Assembly (NCBI GenBank): GCA_013331925.1
Contig: DUFJ01000041.1
Location: 1 to 6,656 of the forward strand
DNA: 6,656 nucleotides
From: Candidatus Iainarchaeum sp.
GTDB taxonomy: Archaea > Iainarchaeota > Iainarchaeia > Iainarchaeales > UBA10191
Reading direction: 5' to 3'
The notes beneath the pieces are model-generated. The model saw nothing but the letters and a program-made list of their open reading frames with translations, made no database searches and had not been told where the DNA came from. Positions 1-6,331 of the stretch are shown one piece after another. The translations under genes and the position numbers were made by a program. Numbering within the stretch: the first letter of the stretch is position 1; every line of letters begins with the position of its first letter.

Positions 1-1557
1 GTCGTAATTAAGCACCGCAAGCAATTCCCTTGTGAGAAAGCGCGCTGCAAGCCTTGCTTCTATTTTTTTAGAAGCCTGATCAAATAATTTTCCAATCTCA
101 AAGTCTGAAGCAAGCACTCTAGCGTCATATTCTGAAAGCTTGAAATCTTTCATCAGGCGCTTTGCCTTTTGTTCCGGAAGCTCCGGAAGCTGTTGTTTTA
201 TTTCCGCAATTTTTTCTTTGGAGATTGCAATCTTTGTCAGGTCTGGCTCGAAAATATACCCGTAATCCTCTTCTGTCTCTTTGATGCGCAGGCTTTTTGT
301 TTTTCCGCTTGCCTCCTCAAAGCCTCTTGTCTCCCTAGCTTGCCTTTTTCCTTCAGCAATTAATTCTTTCTGGCGTTCTATCTCGAACTTTAACGCGTCC
401 TCAACAGCCTTGAAGCCTGTAACGTTTTTCACCTCAACTCTTTCAAAGCCCTGGATTGAAACATTAGTGTCGACTTTCAAAACGTTTTTTCCAAGCTCGA
501 AAACTTCCAGGTAATTCAGCAGATTAAGCAAGGCATCAAGGAATTCCCTGGCTTCTTGCGGAGTTTCAAGGTCTGGCTCTGTCACTATTTCTAACAAAGG
601 AATTCCAGAGCGGTTGTAATCTATAAGGCAATAATTGCTCTCATGCAATCCTCCTTCATGCACTAGTGCTGCAGGGTCTTCTTCCAAATGCGCTCTTCTT
701 ATTCGGATTTTTTTCCCGTTTTTCAGCAGCAGCTCTCCGCCAACTCCTAGCGGAATTTCATACTGTGAAATCTGGAAATTCTTCGCCAAATCAGGGTAAA
801 AGTACGTTTTCCTGCTGAAATAGAATTCCTCATTGATTTTGCAATTCAACCCTAAAGCTACCTTCAAACCCATTTCGACTGCTTTTTCATTCAAAACCGG
901 CTTGCTGCCTGGCATTCCAAGGCAGGTTGGGCAGGTTCTAGAGTTCGGTAAGTCTTCTATTGCAGGTGCTTTTTCGCTTTTGTTTTCTGTAAATTTTTCC
1001 TTTAGCTTTTCCTCCGAGGAGATGTCTACTTTTTCAAAAGAATCCAGGGATTTCAAAAATTCTCTCGCAGAGATTATTATGCCTGAATAATGGTTTCCTG
1101 CGTTGAAGGAAACTTTTTCATTTTTCAAAAGCTTTTCATCAATTATTTTCTTTATTCCATCAATCGTTGGAGGAACCGCTCCGACAATACAGCCAGTGAA
1201 TTCCAAAACCTCTTCGGGAGTTGCGGGGCGCAAATTTTCTGATTTGAGAAATTCTTTGGCTTTTTTTAAATCCAGCCTTCTGTCTCCTGGAAGCAGGAAA
1301 ATTATTGGCTTTCCATCGCTGGCAAAGACCAAGGCTTTCACAATCTGCTCCGGGGAAAGGTTTCTCTCCCTTGCAGAATCAAAGCATGTCAGGCACAAGC
1401 CATGCTCCAAATATTCAAACTCCAAGCCTTTCTTTTCCAGCAGTTCCTTAACCCAAGCCAATCTTCCAGGCTGTGTTGGGCAATTGCAGAATAGCTTGCT
1501 TTGGGTGTTTAGCTGCAGGTGAATTTCCAAACCAATGACTGGCTTTAGGTCTTTCAT
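1..1557 (-). CDS. gatB: GatB subunit of Asp/Glu-tRNA amidotransferase with inserted YbaK-like editing domain (3' end off window)
   Basis: GatB is the kinase/transamidase subunit of cytosolic GatCAB: it phosphorylates the side chain of Asp-tRNA(Asn) or Glu-tRNA(Gln) and amidates it with ammonia delivered from GatA. The frame is open for 519 codons to the left edge. GatB landmarks: VIGLEIHLQLNT (7-18, with Glu11 and His13 of the catalytic cradle), KLFCNC (21-26), CPTCLGMPG (209-217), YFYPDL (252-257), HLEED (290-294), DYNRSGIPLLEIVTEPDL (313-330), VEVKN (374-378) and FEIERQ (391-396). The helical/YqeY-like tail begins near 445 and is cut off; without the insert the visible part is about 370 residues, so roughly 100 or more C-terminal residues lie outside. 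Residues 31-180 form an extra domain (separate entry). ATG at 1557 is the only canonical start: an in-frame TGA lies four codons upstream and a GGTGA site is well spaced. It is the third gene of gatC-gatA-gatB. GatE was considered, but the CPxCLGxPG segment and the GatA/GatC neighbours indicate GatB. Confidence 0.96.
   Translation of the reverse strand, partial: MKDLKPVIGLEIHLQLNTQSKLFCNCPTQPGRLAWVKELLEKKGLEFEYLEHGLCLTCFDSARERNLSPEQIVKALVFASDGKPIIFLLPGDRRLDLKKAKEFLKSENLRPATPEEVLEFTGCIVGAVPPTIDGIKKIIDEKLLKNEKVSFNAGNHYSGIIISAREFLKSLDSFEKVDISSEEKLKEKFTENKSEKAPAIEDLPNSRTCPTCLGMPGSKPVLNEKAVEMGLKVALGLNCKINEEFYFSRKTYFYPDLAKNFQISQYEIPLGVGGELLLKNGKKIRIRRAHLEEDPAALVHEGGLHESNYCLIDYNRSGIPLLEIVTEPDLETPQEAREFLDALLNLLNYLEVFELGKNVLKVDTNVSIQGFERVEVKNVTGFKAVEDALKFEIERQKELIAEGKRQARETRGFEEASGKTKSLRIKETEEDYGYIFEPDLTKIAISKEKIAEIKQQLPELPEQKAKRLMKDFKLSEYDARVLASDFEIGKLFDQASKKIEARLAARFLTRELLAVLNYD
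1018..1467 (-). other. YbaK/ProX-type aminoacyl-tRNA deacylase domain inserted in GatB
   Basis: This marks residues about 31-180 of the GatB product, an in-frame insertion that ordinary GatB lacks. It begins with a helix (AWVKELLEKKGLEFEYLEHG, 34-53) like the N-terminus of YbaK proteins. Then come SPEQIVKALVF (68-78), where Lys74 aligns with the family's essential Lys (Lys46 of bacterial YbaK), and FLLPGDRRLDLKKAKEFL (87-104). ATPEEVLEFTG (112-122) is followed by the GxxxP motif GAVPP (126-130), then IDE (139-141) and a closing strand/helix NAGNHYSGIIISAREFLKSL (152-171). A charged linker (181-205) leads back into GatB. Members of this family (YbaK, ProX and the editing insert of bacterial ProRS) hydrolyse mischarged aminoacyl-tRNAs. 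The fold assignment comes from the order and spacing of motifs I recognise. The substrate is unknown; removal of Asp from unamidated Asp-tRNA(Asn), or of a wrong amino acid from tRNA handled by GatCAB, is inference. Confidence 0.9.
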
Positions 1558-1600: not shown

Positions 1601-3052
1601 TCAACTCATCACCTTTTCTAAAAATTGCGATGCTTGCAGCAGTTCTTTCTCTTTCAAGTGCGCTGCTGTCAGCATCAGGCCTATTGGCATTTTTTCCTTT
1701 TCAGACTTTCCGGCTGGAATGCTTGCATGCGGCAGGCCTGCAAGGTTTGCTGGAACAGTGCAAAGGTCCATTGCGTAATTTTGCAGTGGAGTCAGTTTTT
1801 CAATTTCTGAAAACTTTGGCGCAACGATAGGCATTGTGGGGTTTGCAAGCAGCGAGAATTTCTTGAACGCTTTCTGGAATTCTTCAATCAAAAGCGTGCG
1901 GATTTTCATCGCGCGCAGGTAGTAAGCGTCCCTGAATCCGGACATTCTTGCAAAAGTTCCCAGAATAATCCTTCTTTTTGCTTCCTCGCCGAAAAATTCA
2001 GTCCTAGTTTTTGAAAAAAACTCGTCAAAATTTCCTTCAAGCTCCAGGCTTTGGCCATAACGAAGGCCGCAATACCTTGCAAGGTTTGTTGAGGCTTCGG
2101 TCATTGCAACAAGATAGTAAGCTGCAATCCCGTACTTTGCGTTTAATGGGAGAGAGACTTCTTCGTATTTTATTCCCTCGCTTTCAAGCTTTTTCACCGC
2201 ATTCCAGCATTTCTCGCTGACCTGCTTGTCTATTCCTTTCCCAAAAAATTCTTTCACTACACCAATCCTCAGGTTTTTGCTTTTTTCATTCAAGAGTTTT
2301 GAGTAATCTTCAACTTTCTCCTGAAGGCTTGTTGAATCTTTTCCATCCTTTCCTGCAATCGCCTCTAACAGCAGTGCGGAGTCTTGAATGCTCTGGCTCG
2401 TTGTTCCAATCTTGTCCAATGAATTTGCATAATCTATCAAGCCATATCTTGAAACCCTTCCATAAGTTGGAGTAAAGCCGAAAGCTCCGCAAAAACTTGC
2501 TGGACAGGCTATTGAACCGCCAGTGCTTTCAGCAATCGAAACGTGCGTAAATTTTGTAAACGCTGTAAAGCCTGCACTGCCTCCAGAGCTTCCGCCACAG
2601 CTTCTTTCAGCATCTTGAGGGTTTTTCGGCTTTTCAAACCCTAACCCAACATTATTGCTGAAAGTTCCAAATCCAAACTCGTCCTGGCTTGTCTTTCCGA
2701 TAATTATTGCACCTTCCTGCAATGCTTTTTCAACTACTGTTGCATTGAACAATGGGTTATAGCCTTTCAGGATTGCAGAGCCTGCGGTGCTTTCCATTCC
2801 TTTAACGCAAATGCAATCCTTGACGCTTACTGGAACTCCGAACAATTTTCCGTTTGCTTTTTTCTGCTTTAATAATTTTTCCAACTGCTCTGCCCTTTGC
2901 ATCGCTTCTTTTTCAGCCATGAGGTTGAAGTGGTGGAATTCTTTGTTTGCTTTTTTCGCTTCTTCCAGGATTTTTGCAGTATGCTCCAGAATTGAAAGAT
3001 TGCCTGAAGTAACTTGCTCGTGGAATTCAAGGATGGAAAGGGCTTTTTTCAT
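1601..3052 (-). CDS. gatA: GatA, glutaminase subunit of Asp/Glu-tRNA amidotransferase
   Basis: GatA is an amidase-signature enzyme that hydrolyses glutamine and passes ammonia to GatB. At 483 residues it is of normal family length. The Ser-cisSer-Lys triad is visible: Lys78 in VSVKD, cis-Ser155 in CGGSSGGSAG (152-161), and nucleophile Ser180 in STGGSIACPASFCG (176-189). YGRVSRYGL (197-205) follows. Glutamine-binding residues appear conserved: KRRI (359-362), matching the Arg358 region of Staphylococcus GatA, and Asp429 in DLCTVPANLAGLP, matching its Asp425. Unusual: the normally near-invariant DTGGSIR reads STGGSIA (Ser176 for Asp, Ala182 for Arg), although the triad is complete. There is no signal peptide or membrane segment, so it acts in the cytosol. 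The start codon comes one base after the gatC stop (TGA-A-ATG), which implies translational coupling; the gatB start follows 43 bases after its stop. Confidence 0.97.
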   Translation of the reverse strand: MKKALSILEFHEQVTSGNLSILEHTAKILEEAKKANKEFHHFNLMAEKEAMQRAEQLEKLLKQKKANGKLFGVPVSVKDCICVKGMESTAGSAILKGYNPLFNATVVEKALQEGAIIIGKTSQDEFGFGTFSNNVGLGFEKPKNPQDAERSCGGSSGGSAGFTAFTKFTHVSIAESTGGSIACPASFCGAFGFTPTYGRVSRYGLIDYANSLDKIGTTSQSIQDSALLLEAIAGKDGKDSTSLQEKVEDYSKLLNEKSKNLRIGVVKEFFGKGIDKQVSEKCWNAVKKLESEGIKYEEVSLPLNAKYGIAAYYLVAMTEASTNLARYCGLRYGQSLELEGNFDEFFSKTRTEFFGEEAKRRIILGTFARMSGFRDAYYLRAMKIRTLLIEEFQKAFKKFSLLANPTMPIVAPKFSEIEKLTPLQNYAMDLCTVPANLAGLPHASIPAGKSEKEKMPIGLMLTAAHLKEKELLQASQFLEKVMS

Positions 3053-3053
3053 T

Positions 3054-3347
3054 TCAAACCACTCTAGGGCCTTTGAAATAGCCGTTCTTTTTGTGCTTTG
3101 TTAGAGAGAGCGCTTCCTCTTGTGAAAGGCATTCTTTCACTGCATCCTTTCTCCAAACGTTCTTTTGCTCTAAAGGCTGGAAGCTTGGCTTTGCTTTTTC
3201 AACATTCAACTCGTCAATTTTAGAGAATGCTTCAAGGATTTCCTGCAGTTGGGGAAGGAATTTTTTCACTTCCTCTTCTGAAAGGTTCAAGCGAGCGTTC
3301 TTTGCAACCTTAAGGATTAATTCCTTGTCCACTTTCACTCTAGGCAT
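3054..3347 (-). CDS. gatC: GatC subunit of Asp/Glu-tRNA amidotransferase
   Basis: GatC is the small non-catalytic subunit that wraps around the GatA-GatB interface and stabilises GatA. The 97-residue product shows the family pattern: ILKVAKNARLNLSEEEVKKF (residues 11-30), then LPQLQEILEAFSKIDELNVE (31-50), a Pro/Phe-containing linker (KPSFQPLEQKNVWRKDAVKE, 53-72) and the archaeal-type tail KNGYFKGPRVV. It is the first gene of gatC-gatA-gatB. ATG at 3347 has no Shine-Dalgarno sequence upstream; a TATA-like TTTTTTAA lies 26-33 bases upstream, so the mRNA is probably leaderless or nearly so. The GFKGP-type tail and the gene order argue for an archaeal rather than bacterial origin. I see nothing missing or truncated. 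Confidence 0.95.
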   Translation of the reverse strand: MPRVKVDKELILKVAKNARLNLSEEEVKKFLPQLQEILEAFSKIDELNVEKAKPSFQPLEQKNVWRKDAVKECLSQEEALSLTKHKKNGYFKGPRVV

Positions 3348-3402: not shown

Positions 3403-3858
3403 ATGGGGGGAATTCCTTACTACAGGCAGGGGAAAGAGTGGAACTGCGGTGCTGCAGCAATGCGCATGGTTTTGCAAGCCTTGGGCTTTAGAAAATCAGA
3501 GAAGGAGCTTGCAAGGCTTCTTGGAACGAGCAAAAAATCTGGAACAAGAAACAAGGCTTTTGCTGAACTTGGAGAAAAATTAAAGCTCAATTATTGTGTG
3601 AAGAGAAAGAGCTCTTTGAAAGAGTTGGAAAAAATGCTTGATGAAGGCTGGCTTGTTATCTTGGGCTATTTTTTGGAAAAAGAGAAAGAAGGCCATTACG
3701 CTGTTGTGGAAAAAATCTCCAAAGGGAAAATTTTCCTGCTTGATCCAAAGCTTGGAAAAGGCACTAATTACTCGCTCAAGCATTTTGGAAGGATTTGGAA
3801 AAACAACCCTAAAGGAAAGGACAAGGAAAAAAAGTGGCTTATTGCTTTTAAAAAATAG
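3403..3858 (+). CDS. Small cytosolic C39-like papain-fold cysteine peptidase
   Basis: The 151-residue product fits the peptidase C39/C39-like (papain-fold) family. A complete apparent catalytic set is visible: oxyanion Gln9 and nucleophile Cys15 in YRQGKEWNCGAAAMRMVL (7-24), His98 in EGHYAVVEK (96-104) and Asp114 in FLLDPKLG (111-118). IPYYRQ at the start is typical of these domains, which often follow a signal peptide or sit inside larger transporters. Here the domain is essentially the whole protein, with no signal peptide, membrane segment or ATPase, so a cytosolic role is inferred. The protein is Lys-rich and basic towards the C-terminus (KGKDKEKKWLIAFKK). ATG at 3403 is the first start in the frame and lacks a Shine-Dalgarno site; the transcript is probably leaderless. 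It is the only plus-strand gene, placed between the gat operon and aspS. The substrate is unknown; it could cleave a peptide leader or be an isopeptidase-like enzyme. Confidence 0.85.
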   Translation: MGGIPYYRQGKEWNCGAAAMRMVLQALGFRKSEKELARLLGTSKKSGTRNKAFAELGEKLKLNYCVKRKSSLKELEKMLDEGWLVILGYFLEKEKEGHYAVVEKISKGKIFLLDPKLGKGTNYSLKHFGRIWKNNPKGKDKEKKWLIAFKK

Positions 3859-3864
3859 TTTTTT
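3850..3864. terminator. Compact bidirectional oligo-T terminator
   Basis: A6-TAG-T6 lies across the junction of two convergent genes. On the plus strand six T follow directly after the TAG stop of the protease gene. On the minus strand the A run reads as six T a few bases after the aspS TAA. Archaeal intrinsic termination depends mainly on oligo-T in the non-template strand, so one 15-base element could end both transcripts. The A6/T6 arms are also self-complementary, although a 3-base loop of A-T pairs would be weak. Confidence 0.5.
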
Positions 3865-5632
3865 ACTTTTCCAGGTCAAGCTTTAGGTGCAATTCTTTCA
3901 GCTGTTTTTCGCTTACCTCGCTTGGCGCGCTTTCCATTAATGCAATGCCTGACTTGTTTTTCGGGAATGCTATAACATCGCGCAGGCTTTCGGAGCGAGT
4001 CCAAAGCATTGCAATCCTGTCAATCCCTAATGCAATGCCTCCATGAGGAGGAGCGCCTTGCTTGAAAGCCTGCAGCATGAAGCCAAACTTTGCCAACACT
4101 TCCTGTTCCGACAATCCTAGAATTTTGAAGGCTTTTGCCTGCAGTTCAGGCTCGTGAATCCTGATGCTGCCTCCGCCAACCTCAAAGCCGTTCCAAACCA
4201 AATCGTAAATTTTTCCCTTTGCCTTTAAAGGCTCTTTTTCCATTCTTTCAAGGTCCGCATCTTTAGGCCTTGTGAAAGGATGCTGGACAGAGACTATTTT
4301 TTGCTCTTCATCGCTCCAGTCAAATAACGGAAAGTCAACAACCCAGAGCAAAGCGTCCTTGCCTTCGTCAATTAGTTTCAGCTTTTGCCCCAAGAAAAGC
4401 CTTGCCTGGCCTAGCGCAATGCTTGATGTCTTGAAATCATCAGCAACCATTACGATCAAATCGCCTTTTTCTGCGTTTGTTTTTTTCTTCAATCCAGCAA
4501 TTGTTTTTTCGTCAAGGAACTTTTGGATTGAAGAACTTTCAGGCCCTTTTTCAGCGAACTTTACAGTAATTATCCCCTTTGCTTTGTAAACTTTTACGAT
4601 GTCTTCAATCTCTTTGATCTCCTTTTGTGAAAATGCGGCGCAGCCTTTGGCATTCACTGCACGAATTTCCTTTCCAGAATCCAGGGCTTTTTTGAAAATT
4701 TCAAAATCCGTGTTTTTGAAAACTTCAGAAACAGTCTCCAGCTCCAGGCCAAACCTTACGTCCGGCTTTTCAGAGCCAAAGCGCTTTAATGCCTCATCAA
4801 AAGGCATTTTCTCCAATGGAATCTTTAGCTCCTTGCTGCTGCCTACTTGCTTGAAAACATGCTCCATGCAGCCTTCAATCACCTTGAAAATGTCTTCCTC
4901 ATCCACAAAGCTCATTTCAACATCCAATTGCGTGAACTCAAACTGCCTGTCAGCCCTCAAATCCTCATCCCTTAGGCATTTTGCAATCTGGAAATAGCGG
5001 TCAAAGCCTGCAACCATGAGCATTTGCTTGAAAAGCTGCGGGCTTTGCGGCAGTGCGAATACTTTTCCAGGCTGCAGCCTGCTAGGCACTAGAAAGTCCC
5101 TTGAGCCTTCCGGAGTGCTTTTTGCAAGCAATGGCGTTTCAACCTCTATGAAGCCTTGAGAGTCAAAATAATCCCTTATTGCTTTCACAATCTTGTGCCT
5201 TATGAAAATTTTCTCCTGAACTTTTGGAGCCCTCAAGTCCAGATGCCTGTATTTCAGCCTTACCTCTTCTCCAACTGGAACCTTGCCCTCAAGCTCGAAC
5301 GGAAGAGTTTCGCAAGAGTTCAAAATTTTCAAGGAATCTGCAATTAATTCAATCCTTCCTGTCGAAAGCTTTGGGTTTTCAGTTCCTTTAGGCCTTTTTT
5401 CAGCCTTTCCTTCGACCTGCACCACAAATTCTTTCCCGACTTTTTTTGCCTCTTCATGCACTTTCTTGTTTTTTTCAGCATTGAAAACAACCTGCGTTGC
5501 TCCATACCTGTCCCTAAGCTCGAAAAAAGTCAATTCGCCATGGTCTCTGCGCCTTGCAATCCAGCCTTGAAGAATTGCTTTTTTCCCGATGTCTTTTTCA
5601 GAAAGAGCGCCGCAGTTGTGTGTTCTTTTCAA
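3863..5632 (-). CDS. aspS: Bacterial-type aspartyl-tRNA synthetase, predicted non-discriminating (Asp/Asn)
   Basis: This class IIb synthetase charges tRNA(Asp) and, as predicted here, also tRNA(Asn) with aspartate. At 589 residues it matches bacterial AspRS (about 590), not the usual archaeal form (about 430-440). The order is: OB-fold anticodon domain (1-105; [20 protein letters not shown], 23-42), motif 1 ending VETPLL (164-169), flipping loop STPEGSRDF (172-180), QSPQLFKQ (196-203), motif 2 [20 protein letters not shown] (214-233), a GAD insert (about 290-410), Asp-binding [10 protein letters not shown] (486-495), motif 3 [12 protein letters not shown] (532-543) and a bacterial-type tail. 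His31 and Gly83 (in RPKGT) match the His31/Gly81 positions that mark non-discriminating AspRS in Pseudomonas aeruginosa. The start is TTG at 5632; an in-frame TGA lies three codons upstream and KRTHNCG is the expected N-terminus. It follows the glycosylase gene after 33 bases. Transfer from bacteria is inferred. Confidence 0.96.
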
Positions 5633-5665: not shown

Positions 5666-6331
5666 TCAATAAAAGGCTTTTAAACTGATTTTTCCAAACT
5701 CGCACTCACCCTTCAAAAAACACTTTCTGCACAATGGCTTTTTCCTGCAGGCTTCCTTGCAGTGCCTTACAACCAAGGCGTGGAATTCGTTGTAAAGCCT
5801 TGGGCTTTTTGGAAGCGCGCTTTGGAAGAAAGCCTGCAATCGCGCGTAAGTTTCAGCCTTAGGGTTTAATGGAAGCCGCTCATTAAGGCGTTTTGTGTAG
5901 GCATCAATCACAAACATTGGCTTTCCTGCGGCGTAAAGAATTATAGAGTCTGCTGTTTCATTGCCAATTCCATGCAGTGAGAGCAATTCTTTGCGGAGCG
6001 CTAGAACAGGGAGTGAAAAAAGTCTTTGCAATGAGCCTTTGTAATTTTTTTGCACGTATTGGCAGAAGAGCTTGAGGCTTTTTGCTTTTTGGTTGTAATA
6101 GCCTGAAGGCTTTATCAGCCTTGCAATTTTTTCAAGCTTGGAGTCTGCAAGCTTTTCGCATGAGAGCATTTTTGCTTTCTTAAGGTTTGCAACTGCTTTT
6201 TCAACATTGTTCCAGGCAGTGTTTTGCGTAAGGATTGCTCCAACGCAAACTTCAAATCCAGAGTTTGCAGGCCACCATGACTGGCTTTTGTAATTGGCAT
6301 AAAGTTTCTTGCAAAGTTGTAAAGGATTCAT
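5666..6331 (-). CDS. Endonuclease III/MagIII-like HhH-GPD DNA glycosylase with Fe-S cluster
   Basis: This predicted base-excision-repair glycosylase of the HhH-GPD superfamily has 221 residues. Visible parts: FEVCVGAILTQNTAWNNVEK (26-45; the ILTQNT helix is typical), SGYYNQKAKSLK (76-87), the helix-hairpin-helix LLSLHGIGNETADSIILYA (116-134), and VIDAYTKRL (141-149) with catalytic Asp143. The C-terminal Fe-S Cys set is C195-x5-C201-x2-C204-x5-C210. Where bifunctional endonuclease III has its Schiff-base Lys (GVGRKTA), this protein has Glu125 (GIGNETA). It should therefore be a monofunctional glycosylase without beta-lyase activity, closest in style to MagIII (3-methyladenine) proteins; the damaged base removed is not predictable here. 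ATG at 6331 lacks a Shine-Dalgarno site but has a TATA-like box upstream. The aspS start is 33 bases downstream and no oligo-T tract intervenes, so the two may be co-transcribed. The protein is basic, as expected for DNA binding. Confidence 0.9.
   Translation of the reverse strand: MNPLQLCKKLYANYKSQSWWPANSGFEVCVGAILTQNTAWNNVEKAVANLKKAKMLSCEKLADSKLEKIARLIKPSGYYNQKAKSLKLFCQYVQKNYKGSLQRLFSLPVLALRKELLSLHGIGNETADSIILYAAGKPMFVIDAYTKRLNERLPLNPKAETYARLQAFFQSALPKSPRLYNEFHALVVRHCKEACRKKPLCRKCFLKGECEFGKISLKAFY

Follow-up and report, generated by a model that had tools for sequence, protein, structure and literature searches.

The gatB gene in a contig of Candidatus Iainarchaeum sp. (assembly GCA_013331925.1, contig DUFJ01000041.1; the whole stretch analyzed, 6,656 nucleotides, is hereinafter called the window) encodes a subunit of the tRNA-dependent amidotransferase GatCAB and, judging from profile searches and alignments, contains an intact domain of the INS superfamily (YbaK/ProX fold) inside the catalytic half of GatB, between two cysteine pairs. 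The existence of this fused architecture is nearly certain. We tentatively propose that the domain is a built-in deacylase which would remove a wrong amino acid, most probably unamidated Asp, from tRNA-Asn while GatCAB holds the tRNA.

An editing-type domain within GatB

The window gatB is a single frame of 519 amino acids that runs off the contig end, the contig starting within the gene. The protein exceeds the cut-offs of both curated GatB models, NF004012 (428.3 bits against 338) and TIGR00133 (381.9 against 314.8), and a Pfam search detects GatB_N (PF02934, 298.4 bits) in two stretches with a tRNA_edit match (PF04073, 87.6 bits against the curated cut-off of 25.5, E = 8.7e-25) between them. 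A sequence-only reading of this DNA had described one uninterrupted frame passing from GatB into an editing-type domain and back, and had predicted that PF02934 would be found split by PF04073; frame and profile search bear out both statements, and the hallmarks it named (Lys74, LPGDRRLDL, GAVPP and NAGNHYSG) are all at the places it gave. The extent it assigned to the domain, positions 1018-1467 (residues 31-180), lies within the insert but is too narrow: alignment with insert-free GatBs puts the junctions between CNCPT and PNSRTCPTC, with retention of both cysteine pairs, which presumably bind zinc. The fold of the domain is predicted to be of the YbaK/ProX type. The features of the gene are the following.

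1..1557, minus strand: gatB with inserted editing domain, C-terminus lost at the contig end (NF004012)
1480..1488, minus strand: CNC, first cysteine pair of the GatB knuckle (alignment)
949..1473, minus strand: whole insert, residues 29-203, consisting of the INS-type domain and a C-terminal linker (alignment)
1054..1392, minus strand: PF04073 tRNA_edit match, residues 56-168 (Pfam)
1336..1338, minus strand: codon of Lys74, the predicted catalytic lysine, a Lys in 18 of 18 fused proteins (alignment)
1168..1182, minus strand: GAVPP, the GxxxP loop (alignment)
1096..1110, minus strand: SFNAG motif, the FNAG of which is also present in Escherichia coli YeaK (alignment)
916..933, minus strand: CPTCLG, second cysteine pair of the GatB knuckle (alignment)

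A search with the domain over 87 genomes of the phylum gave matches at E <=1e-20 in 19. In 8 of the 87 genomes the matching domain is linked to GatB and scores 218-253 bits, whereas stand-alone copies reach at most 110 bits. Four of these genomes, namely the metagenome-assembled genome (MAG) to which the window belongs (G000), G001, G015 and G055, have the inserted layout; in three others (G012, G018 and G067) the domain precedes a complete GatB_N, and in G070 it precedes a GatB frame that is broken off in the assembly (L010:1390-2001 and 189-1520, minus strand). The insertion reported by the sequence-only reading is accordingly real and recurrent, but it is only one of two layouts. Protein searches, which partly recover the same genes, identified 18 fused proteins, 8 inserted and 10 N-terminal; 4 further fused-GatB locus rows were set aside as duplicates of these or broken. 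Other proteins combining PF02934 and PF04073, for which the sequence-only reading had proposed a search, thus exist. Of the named records, two are assigned to Ca. Diapherotrites, one is labelled 'archaeon' and one comes from Ca. Forterrea (Ca. Iainarchaeota at NCBI). The domain is present in 17 of the best 120 of 4822 hits to the GatB part of one fused protein, P0002. The database proteins P0001-P0005 also carry the C-terminal GatB_Yqey domain, before which the window copy ends; P0001 is the window's own protein with its N-terminus cut (99% identical) and is not independent evidence.

As the contig starts inside gatB, an assembly or binning artefact could be suspected. The identical inserted layout, with the same junctions, occurs in G001, G015 and G055, in the named records L063, L064 and L065, and in the database proteins P0002-P0005, P0019, P0035 and P0052; this refutes a chimeric assembly, the probability of which we consider negligible. 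A gene of the inositol monophosphatase family (PF00459) was observed before the N-terminally fused gatB at three loci (L007:722-1489, plus strand; L008:2715-3452 and L010:2693-3409, minus strand).

Affinities and history of the domain

The sole non-GatB hit of the first protein search was P0006, an aspartyl-tRNA synthetase (AspRS) with a tRNA_edit domain. A search with the P0006 domain, the reach of which comprised proteins of 0.55-1.75 times the length of P0006 that share exact words with it, yielded at least 74 proteins including P0006 itself (P0006 and P0123-P0195), all 74 combining PF04073 with PF00152, the model for class II Asp, Asn and Lys synthetases. The named source organisms are Dojkabacteria, Gottesmanbacteria or 'Patescibacteria group'. 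The AspRS-linked domain is YeaK-like and C-terminal in the proteins examined, with an N-terminal location in P0193, which comes from a marine eukaryote transcriptome; in P0161, it is attached to an archaeal-type AspRS. Fusion of such domains has thus taken place on at least two occasions, with the two enzymes of one pathway as hosts, and we regard this dual linkage to GatB and AspRS as the strongest hint that the substrate resides on tRNA-Asn or tRNA-Asp.

The assignment of the GatB insert to the YbaK/ProX type made by the sequence-only reading holds for the superfamily and the fold but not for the curated YbaK family, to whose model, TIGR00011, the window domain scores 51.0 bits against a cut-off of 153.25. 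In the domain tree, for which 135 columns were kept and in which the reference branches are long, the GatB-linked domains form a clade of their own (support 100/99), set apart from YbaK, prolyl-tRNA synthetase (ProRS) and ProXp-x (2cx5). Its sister (93/86) is a clade (99/95) that unites the AspRS-linked domains with YeaK, 3op6 and stand-alone copies of the same order, YeaK itself lying on a long branch (85/68). Given the score and the tree, it is quite improbable that the domain is a general editor of the prolyl system, acting on Ala- or Cys-tRNA-Pro and carried by GatB by chance, even though it shares superfamily and fold with YbaK and ProX. The inserted form is one clade, without strong support, in two domain trees, one including every second AspRS-linked row (86/79) and the other every third and omitting 12 long-branched stand-alone rows (91/78); a single switch between the two layouts may therefore have occurred.

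Comparison of individual residues (71 distinct of the 74 AspRS-linked rows; 48 distinct stand-alone rows, which are part of the copies found) used E. coli YeaK, YbaK and ProRS as controls, YeaK being represented by one sequence only. With positions numbered from the catalytic lysine (K), Arg at K-9 is found in 18 of 18 GatB-linked and 71 of 71 AspRS-linked rows, FNAG in all 18 GatB-linked domains, and the same Lys in 69 of 71 AspRS-linked rows. YeaK has in common with the GatB-linked domains the His, the Arg at K-9, the Lys, GxxPP and FNAG; YbaK retains His and Lys and lacks Arg and FNAG; the ProRS domain has the Lys without His, Arg, GxxPP or FNAG; and 3op6 has FNAG without the Arg. The Arg at K-9 was considered as a mark of Asp specificity and dropped, since the YeaK control has it too.

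These similarities, together with the sister-clade position and the broad tRNA specificity of YeaK-type enzymes (PMC11295145), are what an alternative would lead one to expect under which a specificity like that of YeaK (ProXp-ST) was kept, the domain removes Ser, Thr or other small amino acids from a broad range of tRNAs, and GatB merely delivers the tRNA. Against this, the GatB-linked clade has invariants of its own (Ser at K-13, Gln-Ile at K-3 and K-2, and a Gly where AspRS-linked rows have Ser), and AspRS and GatB would be odd fusion partners for a general Ser/Thr editor. We regard this alternative as unlikely, albeit the most serious one.

The conserved Lys and the GxxPP loop are present in 18 of 18 fused proteins, whereas stand-alone copies elsewhere in the order have lost the catalytic Lys in 3 of 48 distinct rows. 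Deacylase activity of the domain is likely, and a non-catalytic tRNA-binding or structural module, with which the dispensability of the domain in close relatives would agree, appears improbable. The stand-alone YbaK-like proteins L138, L140 and L144 from the same order have Met or Arg in place of the catalytic Lys.

On trees of the GatB core, fused and plain GatBs intermix, and well-supported branches force 6 changes (55 rows) or 11 changes (49 rows). The 49-row tree, in which 31 plain GatBs were hand-picked from the 103 plain ones among the best 120 of the 4822 hits, contains close pairs of fused and plain proteins, such as P0052 and P0025, and P0041 and P0082, respectively. Close relatives thus often lack the domain, so amidation does not need it, as expected of proofreading, and the editing module is an accessory. 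Single origin with plain descent of the whole fused gene was rejected (p = 1.2e-154 in the approximately unbiased (AU) test for the 18 fused proteins as one clade of the core tree), as was a single core clade of the 8 inserted GatBs (p-AU 2.5e-7). For the 18 fused proteins, the domain and core trees are largely, not wholly, congruent: the domain data lose 44.8 log-likelihood units on the core tree (p-AU 0.015), compared with at least 392 on 20 random trees, and the core data lose 258 units on the domain tree (p-AU 1.9e-5). These data seem better explained by an ancient fusion that was lost repeatedly and exchanged to some extent than by repeated free gain, without settling the matter, and paralogues may be part of the history, given a plain GatB in the window's own MAG. 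A trade-off between signature-bearing stand-alone copies and fused GatB was also considered; the four stand-alone PF04073 copies above the cut-off in carrier genomes (G001, G012, G015 and G067) lack the signature, but they are too few to support a conclusion.

The asparagine pathway and the proposed function

The window comprises aspS, gatC, gatA and gatB, all on the minus strand, with gatA and gatB adjacent:

1601..3052, minus strand: gatA (TIGR00132, 485.4 bits, cut-off 481.1)
3054..3347, minus strand: gatC (TIGR00135, 87.8 bits, cut-off 47.1)
3863..5632, minus strand: aspS, bacterial-type AspRS with a GAD domain and the RRDHG motif (profile searches)

We take the RRDHG motif to mark a non-discriminating AspRS. 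The pathway was checked in 10 genomes, the 8 carriers and 2 non-carriers. In 8 of the 10, aspS, gatC and gatA are contiguous, the contigs of G055 and G070 not showing the arrangement; 9 of the 10, including 7 of the 8 carriers, have a lone PF00152 gene, and the second such gene of G001 encodes an Asp-tRNA(Asn) ligase of the archaeal type (488.4 bits against a cut-off of 353). The PF00152 search revealed no asparaginyl-tRNA synthetase (AsnRS) in the 8 carriers, which are 72-97% complete, so that absence is not proof. In 7 of the 8 carriers, the other gene with PF02934 encodes GatE, and the fused GatB is the sole GatB seen in the seven carriers other than G000. Because no AsnRS was seen, the second PF02934 gene is GatE in all but one carrier, and aspS, gatC and gatA are linked, this GatCAB is most likely the enzyme that forms Asn-tRNA, and the tRNA-Asn setting suggested by the sequence-only reading stands to that extent. 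Between gatC and aspS, on the opposite strand, lies an open reading frame resembling a C39-type peptidase (3403-3858, plus strand; PF03412, 59.6 bits), and aspS is adjoined by a HhH-GPD DNA glycosylase gene (5666-6331, minus strand), a 44% identical homolog of which (L095) is located beside aspS in G004.

The tRNA-Asn genes of G000 (L147:1501-1574) and G012 (L146:1501-1574) have G1-C72 and G73. Bacterial GatCAB reads a U1-A72 mark, and archaeal GatCABs separate tRNA-Asn from tRNA-Asp by other marks; with G1-C72 in place of U1-A72, this GatCAB must distinguish the two tRNAs in another way. Mistakes are possibly easier in this situation, and the domain might then guard Asp codons by removing Asn from tRNA-Asp misamidated by GatCAB, a role that would suit the AspRS fusions too. 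We consider it improbable: those other marks still allow archaeal enzymes to discriminate, and no tRNA-Asp for comparison turned up among the tRNA loci examined.

Asp-tRNA-Asn, the intermediate of the indirect Asn pathway, is dangerous, and the pathway is generally regarded as relying on channelling and on discrimination by the elongation factor. Under the proposal that the inserted domain edits tRNA-Asn, the AspRS, probably non-discriminating, would charge tRNA-Asn with Asp, and GatCAB would bind the product and normally amidate it. If glutamine or ATP were short, or the amino acid wrong, the CCA end would leave the GatB site for the editing pocket, presumably close by. There, A76 would be held by Lys74 and the GAVPP loop in a position in which water can attack, as happens in the other INS enzymes; the freed tRNA-Asn could be recharged, which would prevent Asp from entering the protein at Asn codons. 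That Asp-tRNA-Asn is the substrate is a reasoned guess, perhaps slightly less secure than the general proposal. The broader notion that this GatCAB would be the first tRNA-dependent amidotransferase to possess a proofreading centre, and would amidate or destroy Asp-tRNA-Asn in cis, the INS enzyme having been retuned to aspartate with a parallel in Patescibacteria via AspRS, is conceivable, and we advance it with still more reserve.

Several points weigh against the proposal. We know of no INS member that acts on Asp. Editing of Asp-tRNA-Asn would compete with amidation and, next to a non-discriminating AspRS, would be futile. The Arg at K-9 and FNAG, being common to YeaK, are no sign of Asp specificity, and YeaK, which is the closest relative to have been characterised, deacylates Ser- and Thr-tRNA (PMC11295145). 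Signature-bearing stand-alone copies occur in G016, G020 and G029, where the sole PF02934 gene seen is GatE-sized, so the wider subfamily is not tied to GatCAB. Finally, the end of contig C91 in G000 carries the start of a plain GatB without the editing domain (L216:6433-6879, plus strand, 149 amino acids). Over 143 residues it is 100% identical to P0065, a protein with 55% identity to P0001 in the core. This gene may be a true second copy or a binning error: the G+C content is the same (42.5 and 42.7%), but another gene of C91 finds matches in 17 other genomes and none in G001. Among the PF02934 genes of this MAG, no GatE was seen.

If the proposal is true, a hydrolytic check within the amidotransferase would be a third safeguard, in an unexpected host for an editing domain. 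The natural close GatBs with and without the domain make the question directly testable.

Comparison with known systems

In the literature searched, mainly outside subscription journals, we found no GatB of this architecture, in agreement with the sequence-only reading, which knew of none. The same searches yielded no mention of GatB in work on ProXp, the INS superfamily or tRNA_edit, none linking Diapherotrites with GatB, none on GatB with zinc, the transamidosome or the cradle, and no description of AspRS with an editing domain in Patescibacteria. A 2024 review describes INS members as single-domain proteins except for the INS domain of ProRS (PMC11295145); the GatB and AspRS fusions do not conform to this description.

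Of the solved GatBs of GatCAB (3ip4, 3h0l, 3al0 and 4wj3), those that were matched align without an extra domain; the fused GatBs additionally carry one of the INS type, located either N-terminally or within the knuckle. E. coli YeaK (ProXp-ST1, a Ser/Thr-tRNA deacylase) resembles the GatB-linked domains in the five residue features listed above and belongs to the neighbouring clade, but it is a stand-alone protein, and they make up a clade apart, with distinctive residues. The INS domain of bacterial ProRS, YbaK, ProXp-ala and ProXp-x (2z0k, 1dbx, 2dxa, 1vjf and 2j3l) have the same fold and Lys/GxxxP chemistry but represent other subfamilies, YbaK and ProRS lacking the Arg and FNAG; the ProRS domain, like that of GatB, is inserted in a tRNA enzyme, its host being a synthetase rather than an amidotransferase. 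In Plasmodium and Trypanosoma, ProXp-ala is joined to ProRS, another INS-type domain appended to a tRNA enzyme (PMC11286415), although there the subfamily is ProXp-ala, the host a synthetase and the substrate Ala-tRNA-Pro. A further parallel is the Patescibacteria AspRS with C-terminal PF04073, in which a related domain with the same Lys, Arg, GxxPP and FN is located on the partner enzyme of the pathway, differing from the GatB-linked domain in clade, host enzyme and layout.
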